Below, piece by piece: positions 1,134-22,864 of a DNA stretch of 64,000 nucleotides. A model generated the notes under the pieces. It searched no databases. It saw only the letters and a list, made by a program, of their open reading frames with translations, and had not been told where the DNA came from. Both the position numbers and the translations under genes were made by a program. Each line of letters begins with the position of its first letter. Position 1 is the stretch's first letter. This DNA is from Mycobacterium sp. Root265 (GTDB lineage Bacteria > Actinomycetota > Actinomycetes > Mycobacteriales > Mycobacteriaceae): the NCBI RefSeq assembly GCF_001428895.1, contig NZ_LMJA01000001.1, positions 249,150 to 313,149 on the forward strand, written 5' to 3'.

Positions 1134-1345
1134 ACAGGCTTTGATCCGGCCATCACCGGGGAGCCTCCGGAAGAACGGCGTCTCGGCGCTCAGTAGAACC
1201 GGACGGCCGGGCTCGTCATCGCCCAATCGAGCGGCGCACCACGCTGATGTCGGCGCGGTACGCAAGCGGGGTGGTACCGCGGGCTCGCGCACCTGTCGCG
1301 ACGTTCGTCCCCGTGCCTGAATCTCTGGGCACAGGAGACAACGCA
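1134..1345 (+). promoter_or_regulatory. T-box riboswitch (tRNA-Ile sensing) upstream of ileS
   Basis: The leader between a -10-like TAGACT (1122-1127) and the ileS start carries the conserved T-box core GGGTGGTACCGCG at 1268-1281. It also has a short stem I region near 1150-1180 in which an ATC isoleucine codon (1152-1154) is the candidate specifier. Instead of a terminator there is an anti-Shine-Dalgarno candidate CCTGT (1292-1296) that can pair with ACAGG (1331-1335), which overlaps the ileS ribosome-binding site AGGAGA (1333-1338). This matches the translational, short-stem-I T-box class described for actinobacterial ileS. Uncharged tRNA-Ile would free the ribosome-binding site. Confidence 0.9.
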
Positions 1346-4300
1346 GTGACCCCACCTCCCGAGCCGGCCGCTTACCGCAAGCCCGCCGCCGGAGCACCTG
1401 ACTTCCCGGCGCTGGAATCCGAGGTCCTCGACTATTGGGGCGCCGACGACACGTTCCGCGCGAGCATCGCGCGCCGTGACGGCGCACCCGAATACGTCTT
1501 CTATGACGGCCCGCCGTTCGCGAACGGGCTGCCGCACTACGGGCATCTGCTCACCGGCTACGTCAAGGACATCGTTCCCCGTTACCGCACCATGCGCGGC
1601 TACAAGGTGGAACGCCGATTCGGCTGGGACACTCACGGTCTGCCCGCCGAACTCGAGGTGCAGCGCCAGCTCGGGATCACCGACAAGGCTCAGATCGAAG
1701 AGCTCGGCATCGAGAAGTTCAACGATGCCTGCCGTGCCTCGGTGATGAAGTACGCCGGCGAATGGCGTGCCTACGTGACTCGTCAGGCACGCTGGGTCGA
1801 CTTCGAAAACGACTACAAGACACTGGATCTGGACTTCATGGAGTCCACCATCGGGGCCTTCAAGCAGCTCTGGGACAAGGGGCTGGCCTATGAGGGCAAC
1901 CGGGTGCTGCCGTACTGCTGGAACGACGAGACGCCGCTGTCCAATCACGAGCTGCGGATGGACGATGACGTCTACCAGAGCCGCCAGGACCCCGCACTCA
2001 CGGTGGGATTCAAGGCGACCGACGGTCCGGTGGCCGGCAGTTACCTGCTGATCTGGACCACGACACCGTGGACGCTGCCCTCCAACCAGGCCGTCGCGGT
2101 CAACCCCGCGGTCTCCTATGTCACCGTGGAGGGTCCGGACGGACACCGGTTCGTGCTGGCCGAGGCACGGCTGGGTGCCTACGCACGCGAACTCGGCGAG
2201 GAACCCGTCGTCGTCGCGTCCCATCTCGGTGAGCAGCTGCTGGGTACGCACTACCTCCCGCCGTTCCCGTATTTTCCGGATGCGGTCAACTCGTTCCAGG
2301 TGCTCGGGGCGGACTTCGTCAGCACCGAGGACGGCACCGGGATCGTGCACATGGCGCCGGCCTACGGCGAGGACGACAAGGCGACCGCCGATACCGCCGA
2401 CATCGTCGCCGTCACGCCGGTGGACTCCAAGGGCCGGTTCGACGCGACGGTGCCCGATTACGCCGGTCAGCAGGTGTTCGACGCGAACACCCAGATCATC
2501 CGTGATCTCAAGAGCGGCACCGGCCCGGCGGCGGTCAACGCCCCGGTATTGCTGCGCCACGAGACCTATGAGCATTCCTATCCGCACTGCTGGCGCTGCC
2601 GTAACCCGCTGATCTACCGGGCGGTGTCGTCCTGGTTCGTGAAGGTCAGCCAATTCCGGGACCGCATGGTCGAACTGAACCAGCAGATCACCTGGTACCC
2701 CGAACATGTGAAGGATGGCCAGTTCGGCAAGTGGCTGTCGAACGCCCGTGACTGGTCCATCTCACGAAACCGGTACTGGGGCACCCCGATCCCGGTGTGG
2801 GTCTCCGATGACCCGGCCTACCCGCGTACCGATGTGTACGGCAGCCTGGACGAACTGGAGCGCGATTTCGGGGTCCGTCCCGACAACCTGCACCGGCCGT
2901 TCATTGATGAGCTGACGCGGCCGAATCCCGATGATCCGACCGGTAACTCGACCATGCGGCGCATCGAGGACGTGCTCGACGTGTGGTTCGACTCCGGGTC
3001 GATGCCCTACGCGCAGGTGCACTATCCGTTCGAGAACCAGAAGTGGTTCGACGGCGTGACCGGTGACGGCGGGGCAGAGGCACACTTCCCCGGCGATTTC
3101 ATCGTCGAGTACATCGGCCAGACCCGCGGTTGGTTCTACACGATGCACGTGCTGGCCACCGCGCTGTTCGACAAGCCGGCGTTCAAAACCTGCGTGGCAC
3201 ACGGCATCGTGCTCGGCAACGATGGCCAGAAGATGAGCAAGTCGCTGCGCAACTACCCGGATGTGTCCGAGGTGTTCGACCGTGACGGGTCCGATGCGAT
3301 GCGGTGGTTCCTGATGGCCTCGCCGATCCTGCGCGGCGGCAACCTGATCGTCACCGAACAGGGCATCCGCGAGGGTGTGCGGCAGGTGCAGCTCCCGTTC
3401 TGGAACGCCTACACCTTCCTGACCCTGTACGCGCCTCAGAAGGGCACCTGGCGTACCGATTCCCAGCACGTGCTGGACCGCTACATCCTGGCCAAGCTGG
3501 CCGCGTTGCGCGATGATCTGACCCTCTCACTGGACACCTGCGACATCTCCGGAGCGTGCGATCAGCTGCGTCAGTTCACCGAGGCGTTGACGAACTGGTA
3601 TGTGCGGCGGTCGCGTTCGCGTTTCTGGGAGGAGGACCGCGATGCCATCGACACTCTGCACACGGTGCTCGAGGTGACCGGCAGGCTGGCCGCGCCGCTG
3701 CTGCCGCTGGTCTCGGAGGTCATCTGGCGGGGTGTGACGGGGGAGCGTTCGGTGCACCTGACCGACTGGCCCGATGCTGCCGATCTGCCCGCCGATCCGG
3801 AACTGGTGGCCGCGATGGATCAGGTGCGCGAGGTCTGCTCGACGGGATCGTCGCTGCGTAAGGCAAAGAAGCTCCGGGTGCGCCTGCCGCTGCCGAAACT
3901 GACGGTGGCGGTGGACAACCCGGAGAGTTTGCGGCCCTTCGTCGATCTGATCGCCGACGAGCTGAACGTCAAGGCGGTCGAACTGTCCGACGATGTGGAC
4001 AGCTACGGCCGGTTCGAACTGGCCGTGAATGCCCGGGTCGCGGGCCCGCGCATCGGAAAAGATGTGCAGGCCGCGATCAAGGCGGTCAAGGCCGGCGAGG
4101 GTGTGGTCAACGCTGACGGCACCCTGACCGCGGGGCCCGCGACGCTGCTGCCCGCCGAGTACACCTCCAAATTGGTGGCCGCCGACCCGGAATGGACGGC
4201 CGCGCTGGCCGACGGCGCCGGTCTGGTGGTGCTCGACGGGGAGGTGACCGCCGAGCTCGAGGCAGAGGGCTGGGCCAAGGACCGCATCCGGGAACTGCAG

Positions 4301-4501
4301 GAGCTGCGCAAGACCACCGGGCTGGAGGTGTCCGACCGGATCAGCGTGGTCATCGATGTTCCGGCGGAGAAGCTGGCGTGGGCGCAGACCCACGCCGGCC
4401 TGATCTCCGGCGAGGTGCTGGCCACGTCATTCGAGTTCGGCAGCGCGGCGGACGGTTCGGACATCGGTGACGGCGTGCGGGTGACGATCGCCAAGGCCTG
4501 A
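1346..4501 (+). CDS. ileS: Isoleucyl-tRNA synthetase
   Basis: 1051 aa cytoplasmic class I aminoacyl-tRNA synthetase that charges tRNA-Ile. The HIGH-type motif is HYGH at residues 64-67 and the KMSKS loop is at 629-633. Between them lies the editing (CP1) domain with the sequence [14 protein letters not shown] cysteine pair (CWRCRNP) follows near residue 415. The C-terminal part contains the anticodon-binding helices and an extra tail typical of the long eukaryote-like, mupirocin-tolerant IleS type found in mycobacteria. GTG 1346 was chosen because AGGAGA lies 7 nt upstream and this is the position controlled by the T-box; upstream in-frame codons fall inside the riboswitch. It is convergent with the FkbM gene, sharing a hairpin. 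Confidence 0.97.
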
Positions 4502-8846: not shown

Positions 8847-9772
8847 TGACCACCCGTTCGATGCCCGTGCCCGAGGGCCTGGCCGGAATGCGGGTCGACG
8901 CCGGACTGGCCCGTCTGCTCGGGTTGTCCCGCACCGTCGCCGCGGCGATCGCCGAAGAGGGCGGTGTCGAGCTCGACGGCGCGACCGCAGGCAAATCCGA
9001 CAAACTCGTCTCCGGCGCCTGGCTGGAGGTTCGGCTCCCGGAACCAGCTGCGCCCCTGGAGAATACGCCCGTCGAGGTCGAGGGCATGAACATCCTGTAC
9101 TCCGATGACGACATCGTCGCCGTCGACAAACCGGCGGGCGTCGCCGCCCACGCGTCGGTCGGCTGGACCGGGCCGACGGTGCTCGGTGGGCTGGCCGCAG
9201 CGGGTTTCCGGATCACCACGTCCGGCGTGGCCGAGCGCAAGGGCATCGTGTCGCGCCTGGACGTGGGGACCTCCGGGGTGATGGTGGTGGCCATCTCGGA
9301 ACGGGCCTACACCGTGCTCAAGCGGGCGTTCAAGGAGCGCACCGTGGAGAAGCGCTACCACGCACTGGTGCAAGGGCATCCCGATCCGTCCAGCGGCACC
9401 ATCGACGCGCCCATCGGTCGTCATCGCGGCCAGGACTGGAAGTTCGCGGTGACCGAGAACGGCCGCGACAGCATCACCCACTACGACACCATCGAGGCGC
9501 ACGTCGCGGCCAGCCTGCTCGACATTCACCTGGAAACCGGCCGCACCCACCAGATCCGGGTGCATTTCTCGGCACTGCACCATCCCTGCTGCGGCGATCT
9601 CACCTACGGCGCGGACCCGACGCTGGCCAAGAAACTCGGACTGGAGCGGCAATGGCTGCACGCCCGGTCGCTGGCCTTCGCGCATCCCGCGGACGGCCGG
9701 CGGATCGAGATCACGAGTCCCTATCCGGCTGACCTTCAGCACGCCCTGGATCAACTACGCCGCGACCAGTGA
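8846..9772 (+). CDS. RluA/RluD-family RNA pseudouridine synthase
   Basis: 308 aa. An N-terminal S4 RNA-binding domain (residues 10-60, [24 protein letters not shown]) precedes the catalytic domain with the RluA-type motif [11 protein letters not shown], whose Asp is the nucleophile, and the closing motif [12 protein letters not shown]. It isomerises specific uridines in 23S rRNA or tRNA to pseudouridine. It corresponds to mycobacterial Rv1540 by context. It starts on the last base of the lspA stop and its own stop overlaps the rarD start by 4 nt, giving a tight three-gene operon. Confidence 0.93.
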
Positions 9773-10674
9773 AACGGTCCGGACTGCTCTTCGGCATCGG
9801 CGCGTACGGCTCATGGGGGCTGTTCCCGGCCTTTTTCCCGCTGCTCAAACCGGCGGGCTCGGTGGAGATCCTGGCGCATCGGATCGTCTGGGGCTTCCTC
9901 TTTCTCTTTGTGGTCGTCGCCGCGGTGCACCGGCTGCGGGATGTGCGGGCCATCGGTGGCCGCACCTGGCTGTTGCTGGCGCTGGCCTCCGCCCTGATAT
10001 CGGTCAACTGGCTGATCTACGTCTATGCGGTCAACAACGGCCATGTGGTCGACGCGGCACTCGGGTACTTCATCAACCCGCTCGTCACGGTCCTGCTCGG
10101 GATGGTGGTGTTCCGTGAGCGCCTCAACCGCGCGCAGGGCGCGGCCCTGGTCATCGCGGTCGCCGCGGTGGTGGTGTTGACGGTGCAGGTCGGCGCGCCG
10201 CCCTACATCGGACTCGGGCTGGCGTTGTCCTTCGGTCTGTACGGCGCGGTCAAGAAGGTGGTGCCGGTCGACCCCCGGGTGAGCGTCGGAATCGAGACCG
10301 CACTGGCCGCCCCGTTCGCGCTGGGCTATCTGATCGTGTTGCAGGCCGGTGGGCACGCGGAGTTCGTCGGGCACGGCACCGGACATGTGGTGCTGCTGGT
10401 GCTGGCCGGCGTGCTGACAGCGGTGCCGCTGCTGCTGTTTGCCGCCGCCGCACAACGGTTGCCAATGGTGACGATGGGGCTGCTGTTCTATATGACACCG
10501 ATCATGCAGTTGTCCTGGGGTGTTCTGGTCGGACACGAGCCGATGCCGGCCGCCAGATGGCTGGGATTTGCGCTGATCTGGATCGCTTTGGCCGTCTTCA
10601 CCGTCGATGCTCTGTTCCGTACCAGGTCGGACCGCATCGCTGTCGCGCGTAAGCGCATCGGCGCAGAGCCGTGA
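9769..10674 (+). CDS. rarD: RarD-type EamA-family permease
   Basis: 301 aa, ten predicted membrane helices in two EamA repeats. The N-terminus [36 protein letters not shown] matches the RarD subgroup of the drug/metabolite transporter superfamily. RarD members were first linked to chloramphenicol resistance; the physiological substrate is unknown. The start GTG 9769 overlaps the TGA of the upstream pseudouridine synthase gene (GTGA), so translation is probably coupled. It is the last gene of the lspA operon. Confidence 0.88.
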
Positions 10675-10751
10675 TGAGCATCCCGACACCCGATGCGCAG
10701 GTCACTTGCGGCGGGCCGAGTTAACAGCAACACCATGTAGCCTTGTCGCCA

Positions 10752-13700
10752 ATGTCCAGACGTCCGAAGATGTCCGTGCGCGGACTTCTCGCCTCAAACG
10801 GTCAGATGATCGTTCGCCATCCGGTGCTCGTCATTGCCGCTTGGCTGGTCATCGCAGGTTCCCTTTTCGCGGCGCTGCCACCACTGCTCACGGTGGCAGC
10901 GCAGAACCCGCCGGACTTCATCCCCAGCGACTCGGCGGTGGTTATCGCCGCCCAGCAAATGAACGACGCCTTCGAGCAGGAGGACGAGGAAGCCGAAAAT
11001 CTGGGCAACTTGGTTGCCGTCGTCCTGATCAACGATAACGGCCTGACGCCCGACGATGAAGCAACCTACCGCGAGCTGGTCAAGAATCTCAGGGCGGACC
11101 CCGCCGTATCGGGTTTGCAGAGTTTCGTCGATATTCCCGAACTCAAACAGGGGATGGTCAGCAAGGACGGAAAGGCGTACACGCTGCCGGTGGGGCTCTC
11201 CGGCGGCATAGGAACCGGCGATGGACAGGCTGACTACCGCGATGTAAAGAAGATCGTCGAGGACACCACGGCCGGTACGCCTCTTCATACGGCCATTGTC
11301 GGTGCCGCGGCAACGATGGACGACGTCACCGAGATCGCCCTGCGTGATCAGCTGATCATCGAGGTGTCGACGGTCGTCACCGTGCTGCTGATCCTGATCA
11401 TCGTGTACCGAAATCTGGTGGCGATGCTGATCCCGCTGCTCACGATCGGCATATCGCTGGCGGTGGCCCAACAGGTGGTTGCCGGTCTGGGCTTGTTGGG
11501 GCTGGGCCTCGCCCCGCAGACGATCGTGCTAATCACCGGCATGATGCTCGGTGCGGGAGTGGACTACGCGGTCTTCTTTTTCAGTCGCTATCAAGAGCAT
11601 CTCCGGCAAGGGATGAAATCCGACGACGCCATCATGAAGGCGATGGTGACCATCGGCGAGGTCATCGCCGGCTCCGCCGGCACCGTGGCACTGACGTTCC
11701 TGGGTCTGTCCTTTGCCACCCTGGCGGTTTTCTCCACCGTCGGCCCGGCTCTGGCGGCAACGATTACGGTCGGCTTTCTCGGCTCGATAACGCTGCTGCC
11801 GGCGTTCATCACCCTCGCCGGGCGCCGCGGTTGGGTGAATCCCCGAAAGGACATCACCGGCCGACTGTGGCGCAGTATGGGTGTCAGTATCGTCCGGCGA
11901 CCCAAATTGAACCTGGGGGTCAGCCTTGTGGTGCTGTTGTCGCTCGCGGCCTGCTCGCTGCTGGTCGACTTCAACTACGACGACCGCAAGAACCTACCGA
12001 GCGACTCTTTGAGCAACCAGTCCTACGACACCATGAATGAGCACTTCCCGGTCAGTACCTCGATACAGCAGTTCATTGTGATCCATAACCCGAACGAGGA
12101 TCTGCGCTCACCGCGTGCGTTGGCCGATATGGAGCAGATGGCGAACCGAGTCAGTCAGCTCGACGACATCGCCGCTATCCGCGGTATCACCAGGCCCAAC
12201 GGTGAGATGCTCAGCGAGGCGCGCGCCACCCAGCAGGCTGGTGAGGTCGGCAGCAAATTAGGGGAGGCCACCGATCTCATCGACGAGAACGATTCTCGGC
12301 TCACCCAGTTATCCGAGGGAGCACACACTCTCGCCGATGCTCTGGACCAGATTCGCGATCAAGTGGTGGCCTCCGCTGGTGGAGTCCGCACCATTCTGCT
12401 CGCACTGGCGGAAACGCAGCAGGAATTCGGTGGTGTGGAGACACTGCGCAGTATCGATGTCAATGCCCGCTTAATAGATCTCCTTCGTGGGCTGGGCAAG
12501 GCGTCCGGCGGTGGGCTGGAACAGGTTGTGCTGCACACCATTTGGTTGCAGCCCATGGTGGCACTGCTCAATTCCAGCCCACTGTGCACCCTCGACCCGG
12601 TCTGTAAGGCCGTGCGCACCGATATGGGCAGCATTCTCGCTGCGTACGACGACGGCACTATTCAGCAGCTCTACGAGCTGTCCAAGCAGTTGGAGAACAC
12701 CCAGCCCGGCGACAACCTGGCGCGTTCGGTGACCGGGGTTACCGGCAACCTGGAAGAGGCGCTCAATGCGGCTGAGGAGATCGGCCTAGATGATCCCGTC
12801 GCCATCGAACAGCAGATCAACGAACTGGTCGACGGTATGAACAAGCTGGCTGATTCCAGTGCCCTGCTGGCCCAGGGTGTGCAACTACTGGTCGATCAGA
12901 CCCGCCAGATGGGCGGCGGGTTGAATCAGGCCTCTGATTTCCTACTCGCGATGAAGCGAGATGCCTCCGACCCCTCGATGTCCGGGTTCTACATTCCGCC
13001 TCAGATTCTGACCAGGCCGGAATTCGAGAAGGCGGCGAAGCTGTTCATCTCGCCGGACGGTCACACGGCGCGGTACCTGGTGCAGACCGCGCTGGACCCA
13101 TTCGGCAGGGAAGCGATGGACCAGGTGGACGACATCATCGCCGCGGCCCAAAGTGCCAGGCCGAACACGACTCTGGCTGACGCGGACATCACCATGGTCG
13201 GCACCAGCGTTTATCAGAACGAAGTTCGCGGCTATCACGACAGCGACCTTCAATACATAGTGCTGGTCACCCTGATCGTGGTCTTCCTGATTCTGGCGGC
13301 GTTGCTGCGAGCCATCGTGGCACCGCTGTACCTGATGCTCTCGGTGGTGCTGTCCTACGCGTCCGCACTGGGAATCGCAGTGATCTTCTTCCAGTTCATC
13401 CTGGGCCAGCCGATCTTCTGGAACACGCCAGGTTTGACGTTTCTCGTTTTGGTGGCTGTGGGTGCGGACTACAACCTGCTGCTGATTTCTCGGATCAGGG
13501 AGGAGGCGCATCGAGGGACCAAGGTGGCAGTGATCCGCACGGTCGGTGCGACGGGCGGCGTGATTACCTCGGCGGGTCTGATCTTCGCGGCGTCGATGCT
13601 CGCGCTCACGGTGAGCAGCATTGCCGCGATTGTTCAGACGGGCTTCATCATCGGCGTCGGCCTGCTGCTCGATACCTTCATCGTGCGGACCATTACCGTG

Positions 13701-13940
13701 CCTGCGGTGGCTGTGCTGTTGGGAGAGAAGAACTGGTGGCCCTCGAAGGTTCCGAACGACCTGCACAACCACCTTGCGTTCTTGAAGAGTCAACGTGGTG
13801 CGGCCAAGCCCGCTGAGCATAAGCGCGACCCGATCGCCTTTCCCGTCGACGATGAACCCGCTGATGACGACACCGAAATCGGCTACGGTGTCGCGGTGGC
13901 CAAGGCTTCGATGGTCGCGGCAGCGTGGCGGGATCGCTGA
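10752..13940 (+). CDS. MmpL-family RND lipid transporter
   Basis: 1062 aa inner-membrane protein with the mycobacterial MmpL layout: TM1 at about 27-47, a periplasmic porter domain, TM2-6, a second long periplasmic domain, then TM7-12. The paired proton-relay Asp-Tyr motifs are GAGVDYAVFFFSRYQE (near residue 270) and VAVGADYNLLLISRIREE (near 905). The second periplasmic domain (about 420-780) has long predicted helices with many Gln/Asp, like the coiled-coil hairpins of MmpL4/5-type proteins. MmpLs export envelope lipids or siderophores. No mmpS is adjacent. Start ATG 10752 is preferred; ATG 10770 is also possible. It heads the envelope block with udgA, a GT2 and drrABC. Confidence 0.93.
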   Translation: MSRRPKMSVRGLLASNGQMIVRHPVLVIAAWLVIAGSLFAALPPLLTVAAQNPPDFIPSDSAVVIAAQQMNDAFEQEDEEAENLGNLVAVVLINDNGLTPDDEATYRELVKNLRADPAVSGLQSFVDIPELKQGMVSKDGKAYTLPVGLSGGIGTGDGQADYRDVKKIVEDTTAGTPLHTAIVGAAATMDDVTEIALRDQLIIEVSTVVTVLLILIIVYRNLVAMLIPLLTIGISLAVAQQVVAGLGLLGLGLAPQTIVLITGMMLGAGVDYAVFFFSRYQEHLRQGMKSDDAIMKAMVTIGEVIAGSAGTVALTFLGLSFATLAVFSTVGPALAATITVGFLGSITLLPAFITLAGRRGWVNPRKDITGRLWRSMGVSIVRRPKLNLGVSLVVLLSLAACSLLVDFNYDDRKNLPSDSLSNQSYDTMNEHFPVSTSIQQFIVIHNPNEDLRSPRALADMEQMANRVSQLDDIAAIRGITRPNGEMLSEARATQQAGEVGSKLGEATDLIDENDSRLTQLSEGAHTLADALDQIRDQVVASAGGVRTILLALAETQQEFGGVETLRSIDVNARLIDLLRGLGKASGGGLEQVVLHTIWLQPMVALLNSSPLCTLDPVCKAVRTDMGSILAAYDDGTIQQLYELSKQLENTQPGDNLARSVTGVTGNLEEALNAAEEIGLDDPVAIEQQINELVDGMNKLADSSALLAQGVQLLVDQTRQMGGGLNQASDFLLAMKRDASDPSMSGFYIPPQILTRPEFEKAAKLFISPDGHTARYLVQTALDPFGREAMDQVDDIIAAAQSARPNTTLADADITMVGTSVYQNEVRGYHDSDLQYIVLVTLIVVFLILAALLRAIVAPLYLMLSVVLSYASALGIAVIFFQFILGQPIFWNTPGLTFLVLVAVGADYNLLLISRIREEAHRGTKVAVIRTVGATGGVITSAGLIFAASMLALTVSSIAAIVQTGFIIGVGLLLDTFIVRTITVPAVAVLLGEKNWWPSKVPNDLHNHLAFLKSQRGAAKPAEHKRDPIAFPVDDEPADDDTEIGYGVAVAKASMVAAAWRDR

Positions 13941-13997
13941 TCGATACGCCGCGCGCATGACTGGTCACTTCCCCGCTGTGGTCTGTTCAGATTCATT

Positions 13998-14003
13998 TAT
14001 TAT
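13998..14003 (+). promoter_or_regulatory. Candidate -10 box upstream of udgA
   Basis: TATTAT in an AT-rich patch (13990-14010) of the 126-bp gap between the mmpL stop and the udgA start. It suggests udgA has its own promoter rather than being co-transcribed with mmpL. No good -35 is visible. Confidence 0.35.
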
Positions 14004-14066
14004 GTTGCTGTACCCGCAAGCTTGAAGTGCAACCTGGCATGAGTAATGCTGAGAAAGGTTCGTCGA

Positions 14067-15368
14067 GTGCGTCTGACAGTGTTCGGCTTGGGATATCTCG
14101 GACTCACTCATGCGGTCTGTATGGCGGAAATGGGCCACGAGGTCCTCGGTGTGGAGATCGACGCGAAGCGTATAGACAAGCTGCAGAACGGGGAAGTGCC
14201 GTTTTACGAGCCTGGCATCGCTGATTTGCTTCGTAAGCACCTGCAGACCGGCAAGCTGACCATCACAGCCGACTACGCCGTCGCCGCAGAATGGAGCGAG
14301 CTCTATTTCATCGCGGTAGGGACGCCCCAGAAGAAGGGCGAGTCCGCGGCTGATCTGCGCTACGTCGAGGCCGTCGTCGACAACCTCGCGCCACTCGTTC
14401 ATCGCGATGTGGTGATTCTGGGCAAGTCCACGGTTCCCGTGGGCACGTGTGCCAACCTCATAACCCGTGCAACGGAGCTCGCCCGGGGGGCAACGATCGA
14501 GATCGCGTGGAATCCTGAGTTTCTGCGCGAAGGGTACGCCGTGAAAGACACCTTGCAACCGGACCGAGTGGTACTGGGTTTTCACGACGGTGGCCGAGCC
14601 GAAGCTCTGACACGAGAGGTGTACGCGGAGATTCTGGAGCGGGAGACCCCTTTCATCTTGACAGACCCGGAAACCGCTGAATTGGTGAAGGTCGCTGCCA
14701 ACGCGTTTCTGGCGACCAAGATTTCATTCATCAATGCGATCGCTGAGGTGTGCGACGCGGTCGGCGCCGATGTTGCGGCCGTCGCCGATGCGATCGGTTA
14801 CGACGCCAGGATCGGCCGCCGGTTCTTGAACGCAGGTATAGGTTTCGGCGGCGGTTGCCTGCCCAAGGATATTCGGGCTTTCATGGCGCGCGCTGGTGAA
14901 CTCGGGGCATCGGAGGCGTTGACCTTCCTGCGCGAGGTCGACAACGTCAACATGAGGCGCCGCACCCGGATGGTCGAGGTGGCCCGCAACGCCTGCCCGG
15001 TCGGCTTGCAAAGCGCCAACATTGCCATTCTCGGTGCCGCCTTCAAACCCGATTCCGATGACGTCCGCGATTCACCCGCCCTCAATGTGGCGGGACAGCT
15101 TCAGCTGCAGGGTGCTTCGGTAACGGTGTATGACCCAAAGGCGATCGAGAACTCACGCGCGGTTTTCCCGACCTTGTCCTACGCGACGTCAGTGAACGAG
15201 GCCTGCGAGAACGCTGATCTGGTCATGGTTCTGACGGAGTGGTCGGAGTTCGTCCAGATCAACCCATCCGATCTGAGCGCGATCGTGCGCAACAAGACGG
15301 TGATCGACGGCAGGCTCTGCCTGGACAAGGTGTGGTGGGTCAAGTGCGGTTGGACCTACCTGGTGTGA
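14067..15368 (+). CDS. udgA: UDP-glucose 6-dehydrogenase
   Basis: 433 aa cytoplasmic enzyme that oxidises UDP-glucose to UDP-glucuronate with two NAD+. It has the N-terminal NAD-binding fold GLGYLGLTHA, KSTVPVGT, NPEFLREG, the catalytic cysteine in FGGGCLPKD (C264), and the C-terminal AAFKPDSDDVRDSP. The sequence closely follows the mycobacterial UdgA (Rv0322) type as recalled. GTG 14067 was chosen because AGAAAGG (14052-14058) lies 8 nt upstream; a longer reading from 14046 would cover that ribosome-binding site. It lies between the MmpL and a glycosyltransferase, so it probably supplies a uronic-acid donor to that pathway. Confidence 0.93.
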   Translation: MRLTVFGLGYLGLTHAVCMAEMGHEVLGVEIDAKRIDKLQNGEVPFYEPGIADLLRKHLQTGKLTITADYAVAAEWSELYFIAVGTPQKKGESAADLRYVEAVVDNLAPLVHRDVVILGKSTVPVGTCANLITRATELARGATIEIAWNPEFLREGYAVKDTLQPDRVVLGFHDGGRAEALTREVYAEILERETPFILTDPETAELVKVAANAFLATKISFINAIAEVCDAVGADVAAVADAIGYDARIGRRFLNAGIGFGGGCLPKDIRAFMARAGELGASEALTFLREVDNVNMRRRTRMVEVARNACPVGLQSANIAILGAAFKPDSDDVRDSPALNVAGQLQLQGASVTVYDPKAIENSRAVFPTLSYATSVNEACENADLVMVLTEWSEFVQINPSDLSAIVRNKTVIDGRLCLDKVWWVKCGWTYLV

Positions 15369-15904
15369 TCAGCCCCCGCCATCCATCTAGTGCCCGGCTA
15401 CTGACGCCCTACCCAACAGCGCTGTCGCCGTAGCCTTTTCAATCCTTACTTGCTGCCTCGCAACGACGGGTCCGAGTTGGCCGAGCAGAATTGCGTCGTG
15501 GCCGATGGCCTCTCCGGCACTCGCCAGGCGCGCCGTGGGCGGCGGAGATCGGTGCGTGGTCTAACACGGCGTCTAGATGTACTCGGCTAATTGGTTGGTG
15601 ACAGTCGGCTGATCGGGGCTTTGCCTCCGATTTTTGACGTGGACGTGCGGGTCCCCTAGTGATGAGCAGTCCACCGCCGTCCGCTATTTCATCCGCATAC
15701 ACGGACTGCGTCGCTATTCCCTGGTTTCCCCGACTTGGACCATCGTGGGCAGTGCGGCAAACTGAGTCGCGATACTCAAGTGTAAAATCATCGGGCGTCA
15801 TCTTCTGCGCTGTGTCGTATTCAGCTCGGTCACTATCGTCAGCGGCCCGGATCGGTCCGTTGATGGAGGGTTTGACGGGGAAGCCCTACCAGGGGGAGGT
15901 TACC
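15369..15904. other. 536-bp intergenic stretch, no convincing gene
   Basis: Lower GC and weaker codon structure than its surroundings. Open frames on both strands have biased, non-protein-like composition. A TAAAAT hexamer near 15783 could be a -10 box for the downstream glycosyltransferase. No repeat, RNA gene or recognisable gene remnant was seen. Confidence 0.5.
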
Positions 15905-16687
15905 GTGACAATGATCCGAAAGTGCTTGGTGACGATTCCGGCATACGGGCGCAATGAACTGACTCACGCTGTGCTGCCCGATGTGCTCGCAGAGTCCGAT
16001 CTCGTCGATCTACTGATCATCGACAACGGCGGGCATTACGAGACGGTAGCCGACGAGTGGGTAGAGCGGCCAGGACGGAATCTGGGCTGGGCGGGGGCGT
16101 CCAACCTCGGTTTCCGGATGGCCTTCCGCCGCGGTTACGAGTTCGCCCTCACCCTGAACAACGACACCCGCCTGTCGCCCGGCTTCTTCGCCGGCCTGCT
16201 CGATCCGCGAATGCCGGCAGATGCCGGAATCATCGCGCCGGTATACAACGGCTATTGGACTGTGCAGGCCTCGTCGTATGCGGGTCCGGTCGGACAGTAC
16301 GAGCCGCTGGACTATGTCCGGCGTGTTCCGATGGTCGACGGCACGGCCCTGATGATCTCCGCGCCCGCCTGGGAGGCGGTGGGAGGTCTGGACGAGCGTA
16401 GTTTCGGACGTTTCGGGTGGGGCGCGGATATCGATCTCTCGATGCGTGCAACCGCGGCGGGGTTCGGCGTCTATGCCTCGGAGCGTTCGTACCTGGACCA
16501 TGCGGGCATGGTCAGTGCGACTGAATCTGTCGGCAGGCAACGTTACCTCTTCAAGGCGGGTGTGGGCATGGAGTTGGCGCTGGGGCGGCTCTACGGCTGG
16601 TCGGCGACGCGTAACTTACGCAAGGCACGGCCCGAGCGGATTCCGTTGCGAACACTCGATGCGGCAGAGGACGATTCGCGCCACTGA
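15905..16687 (+). CDS. GT2-family glycosyltransferase (rhamnosyltransferase-like)
   Basis: 260 aa GT-A fold enzyme. It begins with the typical first strand CLVTIPAYGRNE, then LLIIDNGG, the nucleotide-binding NLGWAGASNLGFRMAF, and the metal-binding acidic motif LTLNNDTRL near residue 85 in place of DxD. A WGADIDLSMRA motif near residue 175 is the likely catalytic-base region. Proteins of this type transfer sugars such as rhamnose or galactofuranose from nucleotide donors. GTG 15905 (or ATG 15911) follows a strong AGGGGGAGG (15891-15899). No membrane helix is seen. It sits between udgA and the drr-type exporter, suggesting it builds the exported glycolipid. Confidence 0.82.
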   Translation: MTMIRKCLVTIPAYGRNELTHAVLPDVLAESDLVDLLIIDNGGHYETVADEWVERPGRNLGWAGASNLGFRMAFRRGYEFALTLNNDTRLSPGFFAGLLDPRMPADAGIIAPVYNGYWTVQASSYAGPVGQYEPLDYVRRVPMVDGTALMISAPAWEAVGGLDERSFGRFGWGADIDLSMRATAAGFGVYASERSYLDHAGMVSATESVGRQRYLFKAGVGMELALGRLYGWSATRNLRKARPERIPLRTLDAAEDDSRH

Positions 16688-16723
16688 CGTGTGTGATCTG
16701 AGGCGCCCGGCGACGCCCTCGGG

Positions 16724-17521
16724 TCAGTTACCGGTCTTTCCGGTTTCGGCGGCGTTGCGGTAACTGCGAACGCCGAGAACACCGAATATGGCCGCGAGCA
16801 CGCCGCACCATCCAGCGGTCACCGCCAGCGGCAACCACACTCCGTCGGCGCCCAGGGATAAAAGCCGCATCGACTGCACAGCGGCGGAGATGGGCTGATA
16901 CTCGGCTAGTGGGCGTGCCAGCGAGGGCAGCTTCTCGGCAGGGACAAAGGCGGCGAAGGCCATACCCATGCTCGCGGTCCCGAACCAGGCCAAAATCGTT
17001 CGCCCATCGGGTCGCAAGCCCAGTGTGATCACGATCATCGAATAGATGACGACGATGACGCTCGGGACGAGCAGGTAGCCAAGCAGTTCCAATACGTTGC
17101 CGTAGAAACGAAACCCGAGGACATAGCCGAGTGCGAGCGTCAGGACGGTGCCCACCCAGGTGCGCAGCGCCTCGGCGAGCAAGGTGCCGGCCAATGCGCT
17201 GGCGCGATGGACCGGCATGCTCCAGAGTCGGGCGAGCAGACCGCTTTCCTGGTCGTGTGTCATGGCCAAGCCTGCACTGATCGACCCCTGCATTGCTCCG
17301 GCCACCGCGCAGACCGGTATGAGAAGGTCCAATCCGGTCTCACCGGTGACTCGGACCATCGACTTGCCGACCAACACGCTGTAGATGACGAGCAGAATCG
17401 TCGGAAAGAGCAGCGCCTGCAGGGGCACGGTCGGATAACGCCGCCACTGGATGAACAGTCTGCCGGCGAAGATCCAGCTCTCGAGCGCGACCGATTGGCG
17501 TCGGGGAGTGTGCGCGGTCAT
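16724..17521 (-). CDS. ABC-2 type permease (DrrC-like)
   Basis: 265 aa membrane protein with about six helices. It carries the ABC-2 transporter features WRRYPTVPLQALLFPTILLVIYSVLVG near residue 30 and the DQESGLLARLWSMPVHRASALAGTLLAEALRT cytoplasmic segment. Proteins of this type form the membrane channel of DrrAB/C exporters, which in mycobacteria move large lipids such as phthiocerol dimycocerosates. ATG 17521 overlaps the TGA of the upstream permease (ATGA), so they are translationally coupled. Last gene of a three-gene leftward operon, convergent with the glycosyltransferase. Confidence 0.85.
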   Translation of the reverse strand: MTAHTPRRQSVALESWIFAGRLFIQWRRYPTVPLQALLFPTILLVIYSVLVGKSMVRVTGETGLDLLIPVCAVAGAMQGSISAGLAMTHDQESGLLARLWSMPVHRASALAGTLLAEALRTWVGTVLTLALGYVLGFRFYGNVLELLGYLLVPSVIVVIYSMIVITLGLRPDGRTILAWFGTASMGMAFAAFVPAEKLPSLARPLAEYQPISAAVQSMRLLSLGADGVWLPLAVTAGWCGVLAAIFGVLGVRSYRNAAETGKTGN

Positions 17522-18255
17522 TGGGTCCGCCGTTGTAACCGCAGAGCCGCTATGCCGAAGACGACCAGCATGCCCACACACCAGATCATCGTGACCATCA
17601 GGTTGGTCGGGTCCACCTGCCCGGTGGTGAAACCACGCAGGGTCTCGGTGATCTGGGAGATCGGTTGATAGCGCACGAAAGGTTGGAGCCAGGTCGGAAA
17701 GGCTTCCAGCGGAGCGATACCGGTGGACAACAGGACTATCAGGGTCTGCGGTACCAGCAGGAGCTGACTGGCCACCTCGCCGCGTTTGGCCCGGACCCCG
17801 ATCGTGTCGGCCCCGAGAGACAACGCCAGTGTCAGGAGCAGGGCCAAGGCAAAGAACGCCACGGTGTAGCCGATCCCGCCGGTAAAGCGAAATCCGAAGA
17901 TCAACGCGCCGACGATCGCGGCGACGATGGCGAGAAGCCCACGGAGCAGGCAGTAGTTCATCCTGGCGGCCAGCGGTGCGTACTGGGAGATGGGCATGGT
18001 GCGGAGCCGGAAACCCATGGCATTCATGGTCTCGGCCGCCGCGCGATCGGTGGTGGTGAGCGCACCGAACAGCATGGCCTGCACGACGACCGCGGGCAGC
18101 ACATAGTCCGCGTAGCTCACGGCACCGGTGGCGATCACATCGCGCAGCGCGACCGTCAGACCGATCAGGCCGACCAATGCAGAAAACACCCCGAAGGACA
18201 GGTCCACCCGGCTGCGTTCCAGGATCCGAGCTGTCAGGATGACTGCCGGGCTCAC
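17518..18255 (-). CDS. ABC-2 type permease (DrrB-like)
   Basis: 245 aa, about six membrane helices, ABC-2 family. It begins ILTARILERSRVDLSFGVFSALVGLIGLTVAL and contains the mid-protein TTTDRAAAETMNAMGFRLRTMPIS segment comparable to the one in the neighbouring permease. The two permeases probably form a heterodimer energised by the upstream ATPase. GTG 18255 was chosen because it overlaps the ATPase stop (GTGA) and any longer reading would run through the ATPase gene. The substrate is unknown; the neighbourhood suggests an envelope lipid or glycolipid. Confidence 0.85.
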   Translation of the reverse strand: MSPAVILTARILERSRVDLSFGVFSALVGLIGLTVALRDVIATGAVSYADYVLPAVVVQAMLFGALTTTDRAAAETMNAMGFRLRTMPISQYAPLAARMNYCLLRGLLAIVAAIVGALIFGFRFTGGIGYTVAFFALALLLTLALSLGADTIGVRAKRGEVASQLLLVPQTLIVLLSTGIAPLEAFPTWLQPFVRYQPISQITETLRGFTTGQVDPTNLMVTMIWCVGMLVVFGIAALRLQRRTQ

Positions 18256-19202
18256 GTCGTGGTGGCCCGGCTGGTCAGGTGGAGGAACACTTCGTCCAGC
18301 GACGGGCGTCGCAGGGAGATGTCGAGGAGTTCGATGCCGGCATCCTCGACTCGTCGAAAGACCTCGGACAGCGTTGCCACGCCGTGCCTGGCGGGTACCG
18401 ATACCGAGCTGGCATCGACCTCGAGTTCGCCGAAATCGGCAAGTAGCGCCGCGATCCGTGGCAGTTCGTCGACATTCAACGGGGTCATCTGGCAGTAGCT
18501 GGAGCCGGTTTGGCTCTTCAGCTCGTCGGCGGTGCCGCTGGCGACGACCTGGCCCGCGTTGAGGATGACGATCGAGTCGCTGAGGATGTCGGCTTCCTCC
18601 AGATACTGGGTGGTCAGCAGCACGGTGATGTCCTGAGCCTTCAACGAGGACACCAGATTCCACACGTCGCGGCGGCTGCGGGGATCCAGGCCGGTGGTCG
18701 GCTCGTCGAGGAAGAGCACCTTGGGAGGAATCACCAGGGACGCTGCGATATCGATCCGTCGGCGCATACCGCCGGAGTATCCGCTCACCTGCCGGTCGGC
18801 GGCGTGCTCCATATCGAATTGGTTGATCAGCTCCGCTGCCCGGCTGCGCGCCTCGCCGCGCGACATTCCGCGGAGCCGACCGAACAGGACCAGGTTCTCC
18901 CGGCCGGTGAGCCGGTAATCGAGGGCGGCCTCCTGGCCTGTCACCCCGATGTTCTGGCGCACCTGCGCCGCGTCCCGCACCACGTCGTAACCGGCGATGG
19001 TGGCCGTCCCCGATGTGGGTGTCATTAGGGTCGACAGGATGCTCACCGTGGTGGTCTTGCCGGCACCGTTGTGGCCGAGCAATGCACAGACCGTCCCGAT
19101 CGGTACCGAAAAGCTCACGTCGCGTAGGGCGGGAATGCCCCCAGCGAATGTCTTGGCGACGTTGTTGAGCTCGATCACGGAGTCATACGATACAGCCGCC
19201 AT
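18252..19202 (-). CDS. ABC transporter ATPase (DrrA-like)
   Basis: 316 aa cytoplasmic ATPase of the daunorubicin-resistance type. Walker A GHNGAGKTT is at residues 43-51, the signature SGYSGGMRRR near 145, Walker B VLFLDEPTTGLD near 165, and the switch region TTQYLEEADILSD follows. The C-terminal 90 residues match the DrrA-type extension that docks to the permeases. It is the first gene of the drrA-B-C operon with 4-nt overlaps throughout. ATG 19202 is the first start. Its promoter region is shared with the divergent dnaE1 gene. Confidence 0.92.
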   Translation of the reverse strand: MAAVSYDSVIELNNVAKTFAGGIPALRDVSFSVPIGTVCALLGHNGAGKTTTVSILSTLMTPTSGTATIAGYDVVRDAAQVRQNIGVTGQEAALDYRLTGRENLVLFGRLRGMSRGEARSRAAELINQFDMEHAADRQVSGYSGGMRRRIDIAASLVIPPKVLFLDEPTTGLDPRSRRDVWNLVSSLKAQDITVLLTTQYLEEADILSDSIVILNAGQVVASGTADELKSQTGSSYCQMTPLNVDELPRIAALLADFGELEVDASSVSVPARHGVATLSEVFRRVEDAGIELLDISLRRPSLDEVFLHLTSRATTT

Positions 19203-19327: not shown

Positions 19328-22300
19328 ATGAGCGCCTCGTTCGTGCACCTGCACAACCACACCGAATACTCGATGCTGGACGGTGCCGCGAAGGTCAAAC
19401 CGATGGTGGCCGAGGCGCAGCGCCTCGAGATGCCGGCCATCGGGATGACCGACCACGGCAACATGTTCGGGGCCAGCGAGTTCTACAACGTCGCCACCGA
19501 TGCCGGGATCAAGCCCATCATCGGCATCGAGGCCTACATCGCGCCTGCGTCGCGCTTCGACACCAAGCGCGTGCTGTGGGGTGATCGCAGCCAGAAGGGC
19601 GATGACGTCTCCGGTAGCGGTGCCTACACCCATATGACGATGGTCGCCGAGAACGCGACCGGGTTGCGCAACCTGTTCAAGCTGTCCTCGATGGCCTCGT
19701 TCGAGGGACAGCTCGGCAAGTGGTCACGCATGGACGCCGAACTGATCGCCGAGCATGCCGAGGGCATCATCGCCACGACGGGCTGCCCGTCGGGTGAGGT
19801 ACAGACCCGGCTGCGGCTGGGTCACATGGATGAAGCGGTGGCCGCCGCCGCCAAATGGCAGGACATCTTCGGCAAGGAGAATTTCTTCCTGGAGTTGATG
19901 GATCACGGCATCGAAATCGAGCGCCGGGTCCGGGAAGGGCTGCTGGAGGTGGGCCGGAAGCTCGGCATCCCCCCGCTGGCCACCAACGACTGCCACTACG
20001 TGACCCGCGAGGCCTCCCAGACCCATGAGGCGCTGCTCTGTGTGCAGACGGGCAAGACGCTGTCGGATCCGGCCCGGTTCAAGTTCGACGGTGACGGTTA
20101 CTACCTGAAATCGGCCGCCGACATGCGCGCGCTGTGGGACACCCAGGTGCCGGGAGCGTGCGACTCGACCCTGCTCATCGGCGAACGGGTGCAGTCCTAC
20201 GCCGATGTGTGGACCCCACGCGACCGGATGCCGGTGTTCCCGGTGCCCGAGGGCCACGACCAGGGAACGTGGCTGCGTCACGAGGTCCAGGAGGGCCTCA
20301 AGCGCCGCTTCCCCGGTGGTGCCACCCAGGACTACCACGACCGTGCCGAGTACGAGATCAAGGTCATCTGCGACAAGGGCTTCCCGGCCTACTTCCTGAT
20401 CGTCGCCGATCTGATCAACTACGCCCGGTCGGTGAACATCCGGGTCGGCCCGGGTCGTGGTTCGGCGGCAGGTTCCCTGGTCGCCTACGCGATGGGCATC
20501 ACCAATATCGACCCGATCCCGCACGGGCTGCTGTTCGAGCGGTTCCTGAACCCCGAACGCCCGTCGGCTCCCGATATCGATATCGACTTCGACGACCGCC
20601 GCCGCGGTGAGATGGTGCGTTACGCGTCGGACAAGTGGGGCAGTGACCGTGTCGCCCAGGTCATCACCTTCGGCACCATCAAGACCAAGGCCGCTCTGAA
20701 GGACTCGGCCCGCGTCAACTACGGGCAGCCAGGGTTCGCCATCGCCGATCGGATCACCAAGGCGCTGCCGCCGCCGATCATGGCCAAGGACATTCCGCTC
20801 TCGGGTATCACCGACCCCAAGCACGAACGCTACAAGGAAGCCGCCGAGGTGCGCGGCCTGCTGGACACCGATCCCGATGTCCGCACCATCTACGAGACCG
20901 CCCGCGGTCTGGAGGGCCTGGTCCGTAACGCGGGTGTGCACGCCTGTGCGGTGATCATGAGCTCCGAGCCGCTGGTCGACGCGATTCCGCTGTGGAAACG
21001 CCCGCAGGACGGCGCCATCATCACCGGATGGGACTACCCGTCCTGCGAGTCCATCGGGCTGCTCAAGATGGACTTCCTGGGTCTGCGCAACCTCACCGTC
21101 ATCGGTGACGCCCTGGAGAACATCAAGGCCAACCGCGGTATCGACCTGGACATGGACCACCTCCCGCTGGAGGATCCGGCGACCTACGAGCTGCTGTCCC
21201 GCGGTGACACGTTGGGCGTGTTCCAGCTCGACGGCGGGCCGATGCGTGACCTGCTGCGCCGGATGCAGCCCACCGGGTTCAACGACATCGTCGCGGTGCT
21301 GGCGCTGTACCGCCCGGGCCCGATGGGCATGAACGCCCACAATGACTACGCCGATCGTAAGAACGGCCGCCAGGCGATCAAACCGATTCACCCGGAGCTC
21401 GAAGAACCGCTCAAGGAGATCCTGGCCGAGACCTACGGTCTGATCGTCTACCAAGAGCAGATCATGTTCATCGCCCAGAAGGTCGCCGGCTATTCGATGG
21501 GTAAGGCCGACGCGCTACGAAAGGCGATGGGCAAGAAGAAGCTTGAGGTGCTCGAGGCAGAGTACAAGGGCTTCAAAGAAGGTATGACCGCCAACGGTTT
21601 CTCCGAGGCCGCGGTGAAGGCGTTGTGGGACACCATTCTTCCGTTCGCCGGTTACGCGTTCAACAAATCGCACGCGGCCGGCTACGGCTTGGTGTCATTC
21701 TGGACCGCGTATCTCAAGGCCAACTATCAGGCCGAATACATGGCGGGTCTGCTCACGTCGGTGGGCGATGACAAGGACAAGGCAGCGATCTACCTGTCGG
21801 ACTGCCGCCGGCTCGGGATCACGGTGCTGCCGCCGGATGTCAACGAATCGGTGCACAACTTCGCCTCGGTCGGGCAGGACATCCGGTACGGCTTGGGCGG
21901 TGTGCGCAACGTCGGCGCCAATGTCGTGCAGTCGATCATCAACGCGCGCAACGACAAAGGCAAGTACACCGACTTCTCCGACTACCTCAACAAGATCGAC
22001 ATCGGCGCCTGCAACAAGAAGGTGACGGAATCGCTGGTCAAGGCCGGCGCCTTCGACTCGTTGGGTCATCCGCGTAAGGGCCTGTTCCTCGTGCACGCCG
22101 ATGCGGTGGACTCGGTGTTGGGCACCAAGAAGGCCGAGGCCATCGGCCAATTCGATCTGTTCGGCGGCGGCGACGCCGATTCGGGAATGGAGTCCGTCTT
22201 CACCATTCCCGTGCCCGAGGGCGAGTGGGAGGACAAGCACAAGCTCGCCTTGGAACGGGAGATGCTGGGGCTCTACGTGTCCGGCCATCCGTTGGACGGT

Positions 22301-22864
22301 GTGGCGCACCTGCTGGCTGCCCAGGTCGACACCCAGATCCCGGCGATCCTGGAAGGCGATATCCCCAACGACACCCAGGTGCGCATCGGCGGCATCCTCG
22401 CGTCGGTGAACCGCCGCGTCAACAAGAACGGATTGCCTTGGGCCTCAGCCCAACTGGAAGATCTCACGGGTGGGATCGAGGTGCTGTTCTTCCCGCAGAC
22501 CTACACGGCGTTCGGCGCCGACATCGCCGATGACGCGGTGGTGCTGGTCGGCGCCAAGGTGGCCATCCGTGACGACCGGATCTCGCTGATCGCCAATGAC
22601 CTCATCGTGCCCGACTTCTCGAACGCCCAGGGCGACCGGCCGGTGGCTGTCAGCCTGCCGACACGGCAGTGCACGGTGGACAAGGTCACTGCGCTCAAGC
22701 AGGTGCTGGCCCGCCACCCGGGGACCTCGCAGGTGCATCTGCGACTGATCAGCGGCGAGCGCATCACCACCCTGGAGCTCGATCAGTCGTTGCGGGTCAC
22801 GCCGTCGTCGGCGCTGATGGGGGACCTCAAGGCGCTGCTCGGTCCCGGCTGCCTGGGCGGCTGA
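19328..22864 (+). CDS. dnaE1: DNA polymerase III alpha subunit (replicative)
   Basis: 1178 aa, full length. An N-terminal PHP domain starts [16 protein letters not shown]; in mycobacteria this domain is the proofreading exonuclease. The polymerase palm has the catalytic aspartates in [19 protein letters not shown] near residue 420. The fingers include [22 protein letters not shown] near 780. An OB-fold domain follows near 1010 ([17 protein letters not shown]). ATG 19328 lies just downstream of a TAGACT box (19313-19318), suggesting a near-leaderless message. It is divergent from the drrA-like gene. Confidence 0.98.

Follow-up and report, generated by a model that had tools for sequence, protein, structure and literature searches.

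Which product is served by a block of six genes that encodes two putative lipid exporters and two sugar-related enzymes, and that lies between rarD and dnaE1 in Mycobacterium sp. Root265? The block, which holds genes for an MmpL transporter, a UDP-glucose 6-dehydrogenase (Ugd), a family 2 glycosyltransferase (GT2) and a DrrABC exporter, was studied in a window of 64,000 nucleotides (positions 249150-313149 of contig C1) of a 6.67 Mb genome, hereafter G000. An earlier note on this DNA had proposed an undescribed system that makes and exports a glucuronic-acid-containing glycolipid. Judged from its genes alone, the block is probably the export-and-decoration half of a lipooligosaccharide-type (LOS-type, acylated-oligosaccharide) locus, parted from the lipid-making half by the housekeeping stretch from ileS to rarD. 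It would represent a rearranged, DrrABC-bearing form of a known LOS-type locus, with the sugar cassette framed by the exporters as its interesting feature.

The lipid genes of G000 were found at C1:231009-246809, 2.3-18 kb before window base 1. They encode a polyketide synthase (PKS), a PapA, three WS/DGAT-like proteins, an FAAL, a Sap-family protein and a family 1 glycosyltransferase (GT1), the PKS starting 18.1 kb and the GT1 ending 2.3 kb before that base. The PKS (2096 aa, C1:231009-237299) is of the Pks5/Pks2 type and matched NF041183 with 3589 bits against a cut-off of 2400; the PapA contains a Condensation domain (1.9e-14) and the FAAL matched NF004509 with 933 bits against a cut-off of 775. 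This half is bounded on its far side by methylmalonyl-CoA mutase subunits and MeaB, and no mmpL or drr was called between the lipid genes and ileS. Its position is, we assume, also the site of the LOS (pks5) locus in relatives of M. tuberculosis. The Sap-family gene (sulfolipid-1-addressing protein, PF11139), at L058:15568-16332, lies 2.8-3.6 kb ahead of window base 1; an interaction of MmpL8 with Sap has been reported (PMC7261415).

The association of the two exporters was surveyed in 118 genomes of the genus with a simple gene-calling script, which leaves some gene ends and small genes unsure. An mmpL match of at least 56% identity was found in 28 other genomes; as six candidates were scored per genome at E<=1e-290, more distant copies are uncounted. 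In 17 of these 28 (G002, G011, G014, G028, G034, G035, G042, G052, G055, G056, G067, G068, G082, G084, G090, G095 and G096) drrB is found no more than 8 kb from mmpL, against well under one genome expected for random placement in about 6 Mb, which rules out a chance neighbourhood. The same stretch also encodes FAAL in all 15 genomes with an unsplit mmpL-drr locus, WS/DGAT-like proteins in 14, PapA in 13, PKS in 12 and ileS in eight, and since the stretches are 20-40 kb long the absent genes may sit beyond their ends. MmpL and glycosyltransferases share one locus in these 15 relatives; in G000 the ileS-rarD stretch comes between, and 13 kb separate the GT1 gene from mmpL. In the comparison across species that the earlier note had called for, mmpL-drrABC is co-conserved, and neither ugd, found inside the mmpL-drr locus in five of the 17 (G011, G034, G042, G095 and G096), nor a gt2 of the window's family, present in the surrounding stretch in two of the 17 (G067 and G068), is a fixed part.

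Because mmpL-drrABC is co-conserved and stands beside lipid-making genes, a glycolipid made inside the cell and then exported is still the best reading, in the form of a rearranged LOS-type locus. The further idea of an undescribed, self-standing pathway, with Ugd and GT2 making a glucuronic-acid glycolipid and MmpL and DrrABC exporting it independently of the upstream LOS-type genes, is unlikely. The unit is compact and has its own exporters, related mmpL genes occur alone elsewhere, the G096 version contains an integrase-core gene, and the lowest GC of the surveyed stretch falls within the block (two 2-kb bins at 12.05-16.05 kb have 0.603 and 0.604; the next lowest of the 61 bins, which run from 60 kb before the window to 62 kb inside it, has 0.628). 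Yet the block is without any lipid-making gene, the relatives' mmpL-drr pairs stand beside such genes, with FAAL in every unsplit stretch, and ugd is missing from most of their loci. The upstream partner genes point to a LOS-type locus, and a self-standing, undescribed system is not supported.

Open reading frames and domain searches over 10743-19202 confirmed the six genes, mmpL, ugd and gt2 on the plus strand and drrC-drrB-drrA on the minus strand, all placed between rarD and dnaE1 as the earlier note had it:

ileS, 1247..4501, plus strand: TIGR00392 over cut-off; far edge of the housekeeping stretch, with the lipid half beyond it
rarD, 9769..10674, plus strand: left flank; TIGR00688 over cut-off
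mmpL, 10752..13940, plus strand: RND-type lipid exporter; start at 10743, 10752 or 10770; Pfam MMPL, 2.4e-163
ugd, 14046..15368, plus strand: UDP-glucose 6-dehydrogenase, by Pfam, TIGR03026 over cut-off and motif
gt2, 15905..16687, plus strand: GT2-family glycosyltransferase of 260 aa; weak Pfam Glycos_transf_2
drrC, 16724..17521, minus strand: ABC-2 membrane subunit; Pfam ABC2_membrane_3; drrC model at 116.8 bits, under cut-off
drrB, 17518..18255, minus strand: ABC-2 membrane subunit; Pfam ABC2_membrane_3; six transmembrane (TM) helices by hydropathy
drrA, 18252..19202, minus strand: ABC ATPase subunit; TIGR01188 at 352 bits against a cut-off of 312
dnaE1, 19328..22864, plus strand: right flank; NF004226 over cut-off

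The flanking genes are ileS, those for DNA polymerase IV, an asparaginase-like and an RluA-family protein, rarD and dnaE1. The start of gt2 was revised from 15659 to a GTG at 15905, preceded by GGGGGAGG, and with the revised starts of drrB (18255) and drrC (17521) each overlaps the stop of the preceding gene. That MmpL is encoded without MmpS was borne out, the gap of just 68-77 bases between rarD and mmpL leaving no space for mmpS. The 536 bases between ugd and gt2 (15369-15904) contain no convincing open reading frame and are possibly a cassette-exchange scar or a regulatory stretch.

All six reading frames are open and their motifs intact, including GVDY/GADY in MmpL and the Walker A, signature and LDEPT motifs in DrrA. 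As in a DrrABC set, one ATPase is encoded together with two ABC-2 membrane subunits; the drrB and drrC models were matched below their curated cut-offs and Pfam ABC2_membrane_3 was over cut-off for both. The names of the Drr models refer to daunorubicin resistance and related mmpL genes do occur outside lipid loci, which would suit exporters for drug or metabolite efflux, or a block that is a non-functional remnant; against this stand the intact frames and the keeping of the mmpL-drr pair beside lipid genes in 15 genomes, and we consider it very improbable.

For the favoured LOS-type locus, we infer the substrate, the order of steps and a shared task of the exporters as follows. FAAL and the Pks2/Pks5-type PKS, both encoded upstream, would make methyl-branched acyl chains, which PapA and the WS/DGAT-like proteins would join to a sugar core. 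The upstream GT1 and the GT2 of the window may extend the glycan, with Ugd providing UDP-glucuronate, either as the donor itself or for conversion to another sugar nucleotide. The acylated glycan would then be exported by the proton-driven MmpL, and the ATP-driven DrrABC may assist it or move another intermediate, by analogy with MmpL7 and DrrABC for the lipid PDIM.

Several observations weigh against this reading. The identification of the WS/DGAT-like proteins is weak, and the PKS hit is to a model named after sulfolipid-1, although one report equates pks2 names with pks5 in M. marinum (PMC13354803). Two genomes (G087 and G109) have PKS, PapA, two WS/DGAT-like proteins, FAAL and mmpL near ileS and lack drr, and in eight of the 28 genomes (G004, G009, G018, G024, G043, G053, G093 and G098) the related mmpL is away from PKS, PapA and FAAL in the stretch read. 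The MmpL of the window is also without the long tail of the MmpL12 type and branches apart from the G006 group.

The eight lone mmpL genes (L068 and L099-L105) are about 56-59% identical to that of the window; nucleotide-salvage genes surround the one in G093, by Pfam, and a PE-PPE-domain protein is encoded near that of G024. In G077, mmpL adjoins a GT1 gene and a fragment of FAAL lies 10 kb away.

The MmpL protein has 12 TM helices and a loop of 431 residues between TM7 and TM8, as predicted by hydropathy, and scored 820 bits against TIGR00833, under the cut-off. Its nearest solved relatives are MmpL4 and MmpL5. Like the LOS exporter MmpL12 of M. marinum it appears to belong to a LOS-type locus, and its TM7-TM8 loop is similarly long to those of the G006 group (423-430 residues). 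However, 84 residues follow its last predicted TM helix, compared with 164-226 in the G006 group and a tail of about 450 residues reported for MmpL12 (PMC12507525). In the mmpL tree (27 rows, with the G068 gene present twice and rows under 700 aa, i.e. G113, omitted) seven rows of the G006 group formed a separate clade (100/100) without the window mmpL; no named MmpL12 sequence was among the rows. Orthology with MmpL12 is not claimed, given the short tail and the different clade. The gene order in G006 is mmpL, methyltransferase, GT1, GT2, GT1 and PKS, which presumably corresponds to that of Rv1522c-Rv1527c.

How the two halves came to be apart was addressed at dnaE1, which was found in 117 of the 118 genomes and of which the best 30 loci, each at most 3.4 kb, were examined. 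Placement of only the mmpL-to-drr half between rarD and dnaE1 was seen in G000, G034 and G096, where the halves are 10-13 kb apart (GT1 to mmpL), and among the best 30 loci drrA is directly upstream of dnaE1 in these three only. In 21 of the 30 a rarD gene is no more than 1.5 kb from dnaE1, in one (G002) there is rluD without rarD, and five have neither, among them G028, whose locus lies at a contig end. Eleven of the 15 unsplit genomes are represented among the 30, with rarD present in eight and drrA in none. The three mmpL genes on the dnaE1 side form one clade (100/100), so a single move is the simplest account. In the drrA tree, the three join G002, G055 and G095 in a six-member group (100/99), the inner order of which is unresolved.

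The genes between mmpL and drr vary among the linked genomes. A pyruvyl transferase is encoded there in G042 and G055, GT2s in G042, a DUF222 protein in G082, and a GT1-type gene with an FkbM methyltransferase in G034; some genomes, e.g. G028 and G035, have no larger gene in the interval. The ugd tree conflicts with the mmpL tree, G000 and G096 pairing next to G055 while G034 groups with G011, G042 and G095. Forcing the ugd genes of G000, G034 and G096 together changed the log-likelihood by -296 (p-AU 3.3e-6); this trio was chosen on the basis of gene position and of the mmpL tree, a first ugd tree had been seen before the AU test, and the divergent G036 row was omitted. The ugd gene has been exchanged.

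It may be, at slightly short of an even chance, that many fast-growing mycobacteria have a LOS-type locus built like a serotype locus, with two fixed exporters, MmpL at one end and DrrABC at the other, around a sugar cassette that can be exchanged (Ugd, GT2s, pyruvyl or methyl transferases). The two exporters would handle one and the same decorated glycolipid, and in one clade the exporter-cassette-exporter module would have come to lie apart from the lipid genes. If so, such a locus would account for surface glycolipids that differ from species to species, and would offer a second case, beside PDIM, for asking why proton-driven and ATP-driven exporters pair on one lipid.

Ugd has three UDPG_MGDP_dh domains and the sequence GFGGGCLPKD, which contains the catalytic cysteine of the FGGGCxPKD motif, and its best solved relatives are named UDP-glucose dehydrogenase (4a7p, 5.6e-91). 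Its matches are widespread, occurring in 103 of the 118 genomes at E<=1e-60. The predicted product, UDP-glucuronate, may be used directly or as a precursor of UDP-xylose; the exported lipid may, but need not, contain a uronic acid. Within the same LOS-type locus, Ugd could feed UDP-xylose through a decarboxylase encoded elsewhere, the lipid then carrying xylose, a quite possible if somewhat doubtful variant. LOS-II to LOS-IV of M. marinum are reported to contain xylose and the locus of that species has udgL (PMC12507525, PMC12395582), and contig C29 of G000 encodes a match to UDP-glucuronic acid decarboxylase 1 (6e-98) adjoining a second ugd. That decarboxylase is already paired with its own ugd in another locus, which weighs against a link to the locus of the window. 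The C29 region (237144-239568; L117:9145-11569), with the decarboxylase-like gene and a ugd 57% identical to that of the window, is on its gene content a separate uronate/xylose locus; by eye, it adjoins large genes resembling those for non-ribosomal peptide synthetases (NRPS) or PKS.

For GT2, the Pfam match was weak (1.7e-4; 22.0 bits, where the cut-off is 23.3) and matches to rhamnosyltransferase models were also under cut-off. No solved structure matched at E<=0.1, and the only match in a search of genome contigs was one unrelated deltaproteobacterial contig. Matches were found in 38 of the 118 genomes at E<=0.001 and in 20, including G000 itself, at E<=1e-60. The neighbourhoods of 14 of the 19 others were covered (leaving out G047, G051, G058, G074 and G091), and LOS-type lipid genes, mmpL or drr lie nearby in 13, the exception being G093. 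There the closest relative (76%; C22:73384-74190, L021) stands alone, with no lipid, mmpL or drr genes across 35 kb, and its isolation is a sign of gene transfer.

The mycobacterial LOS loci reported in M. marinum (mmar_2309-2355), M. kansasii and M. smegmatis (MSMEG_4727-4737) likewise contain a Pks5/Pks2-type PKS, PapA, FAAL, glycosyltransferases and MmpL, with species-specific sugar genes such as udgL in M. marinum (PMC12395582, PMC4403928, PMC11139207). The product of a LOS locus is an acylated oligosaccharide of trehalose. The present locus differs in being split by the ileS-rarD stretch and in carrying drrABC. No description of a LOS locus with DrrABC was found in the literature searched, where coverage of subscription papers was limited; the string 'drr' is absent from the main text of PMC12507525, PMC13354803 and PMC4403928, and 'abc' from PMC11139207. 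The M. marinum LOS genes are reported to include udgL, pks5 and wbbL2 (PMC12395582), LOS to require PapA4 and its rhamnose WbbL2 (PMC5706390), and export of LOS intermediates to require MmpL12, the last sugar being thought to be added outside (PMC12507525). Transport of PDIM by MmpL7 involves DrrABC, the two reportedly acting together (PMC7261415). PDIM export is alike in setting MmpL and DrrABC within one lipid locus, whereas the lipid genes linked to the window are of the acylated-sugar kind (FAAL, PapA, Pks2/5-type PKS, glycosyltransferases). In M. smegmatis, LOS-type lipids are reported to influence colony morphology and the adsorption of phages (PMC8125055, PMC11139207).

A glycopeptidolipid, a further possible product, needs NRPS genes; neither the block nor the upstream lipid genes scanned yielded an NRPS, the scan covering part of the upstream open reading frames. 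In the M. avium complex, the serovar-specific glycopeptidolipid region (gtfB-drrC) presumably also has variable sugar genes beside drrABC.

Further drr sets were seen in G000 and G055. On contig C28 of G000, L118:7036-8705 and 11768-15099 cover a second drrA-drrB pair, its drrB 51% identical to that of the window, and another mmpL nearby; a small gene adjoining this mmpL may, judged by size, be an mmpS. In G055, a second drr set occurs with a ugd 80% identical to that of the window (C1:471957-478066, L040), far from the mmpL-drr locus which that genome has near PapA and FAAL.

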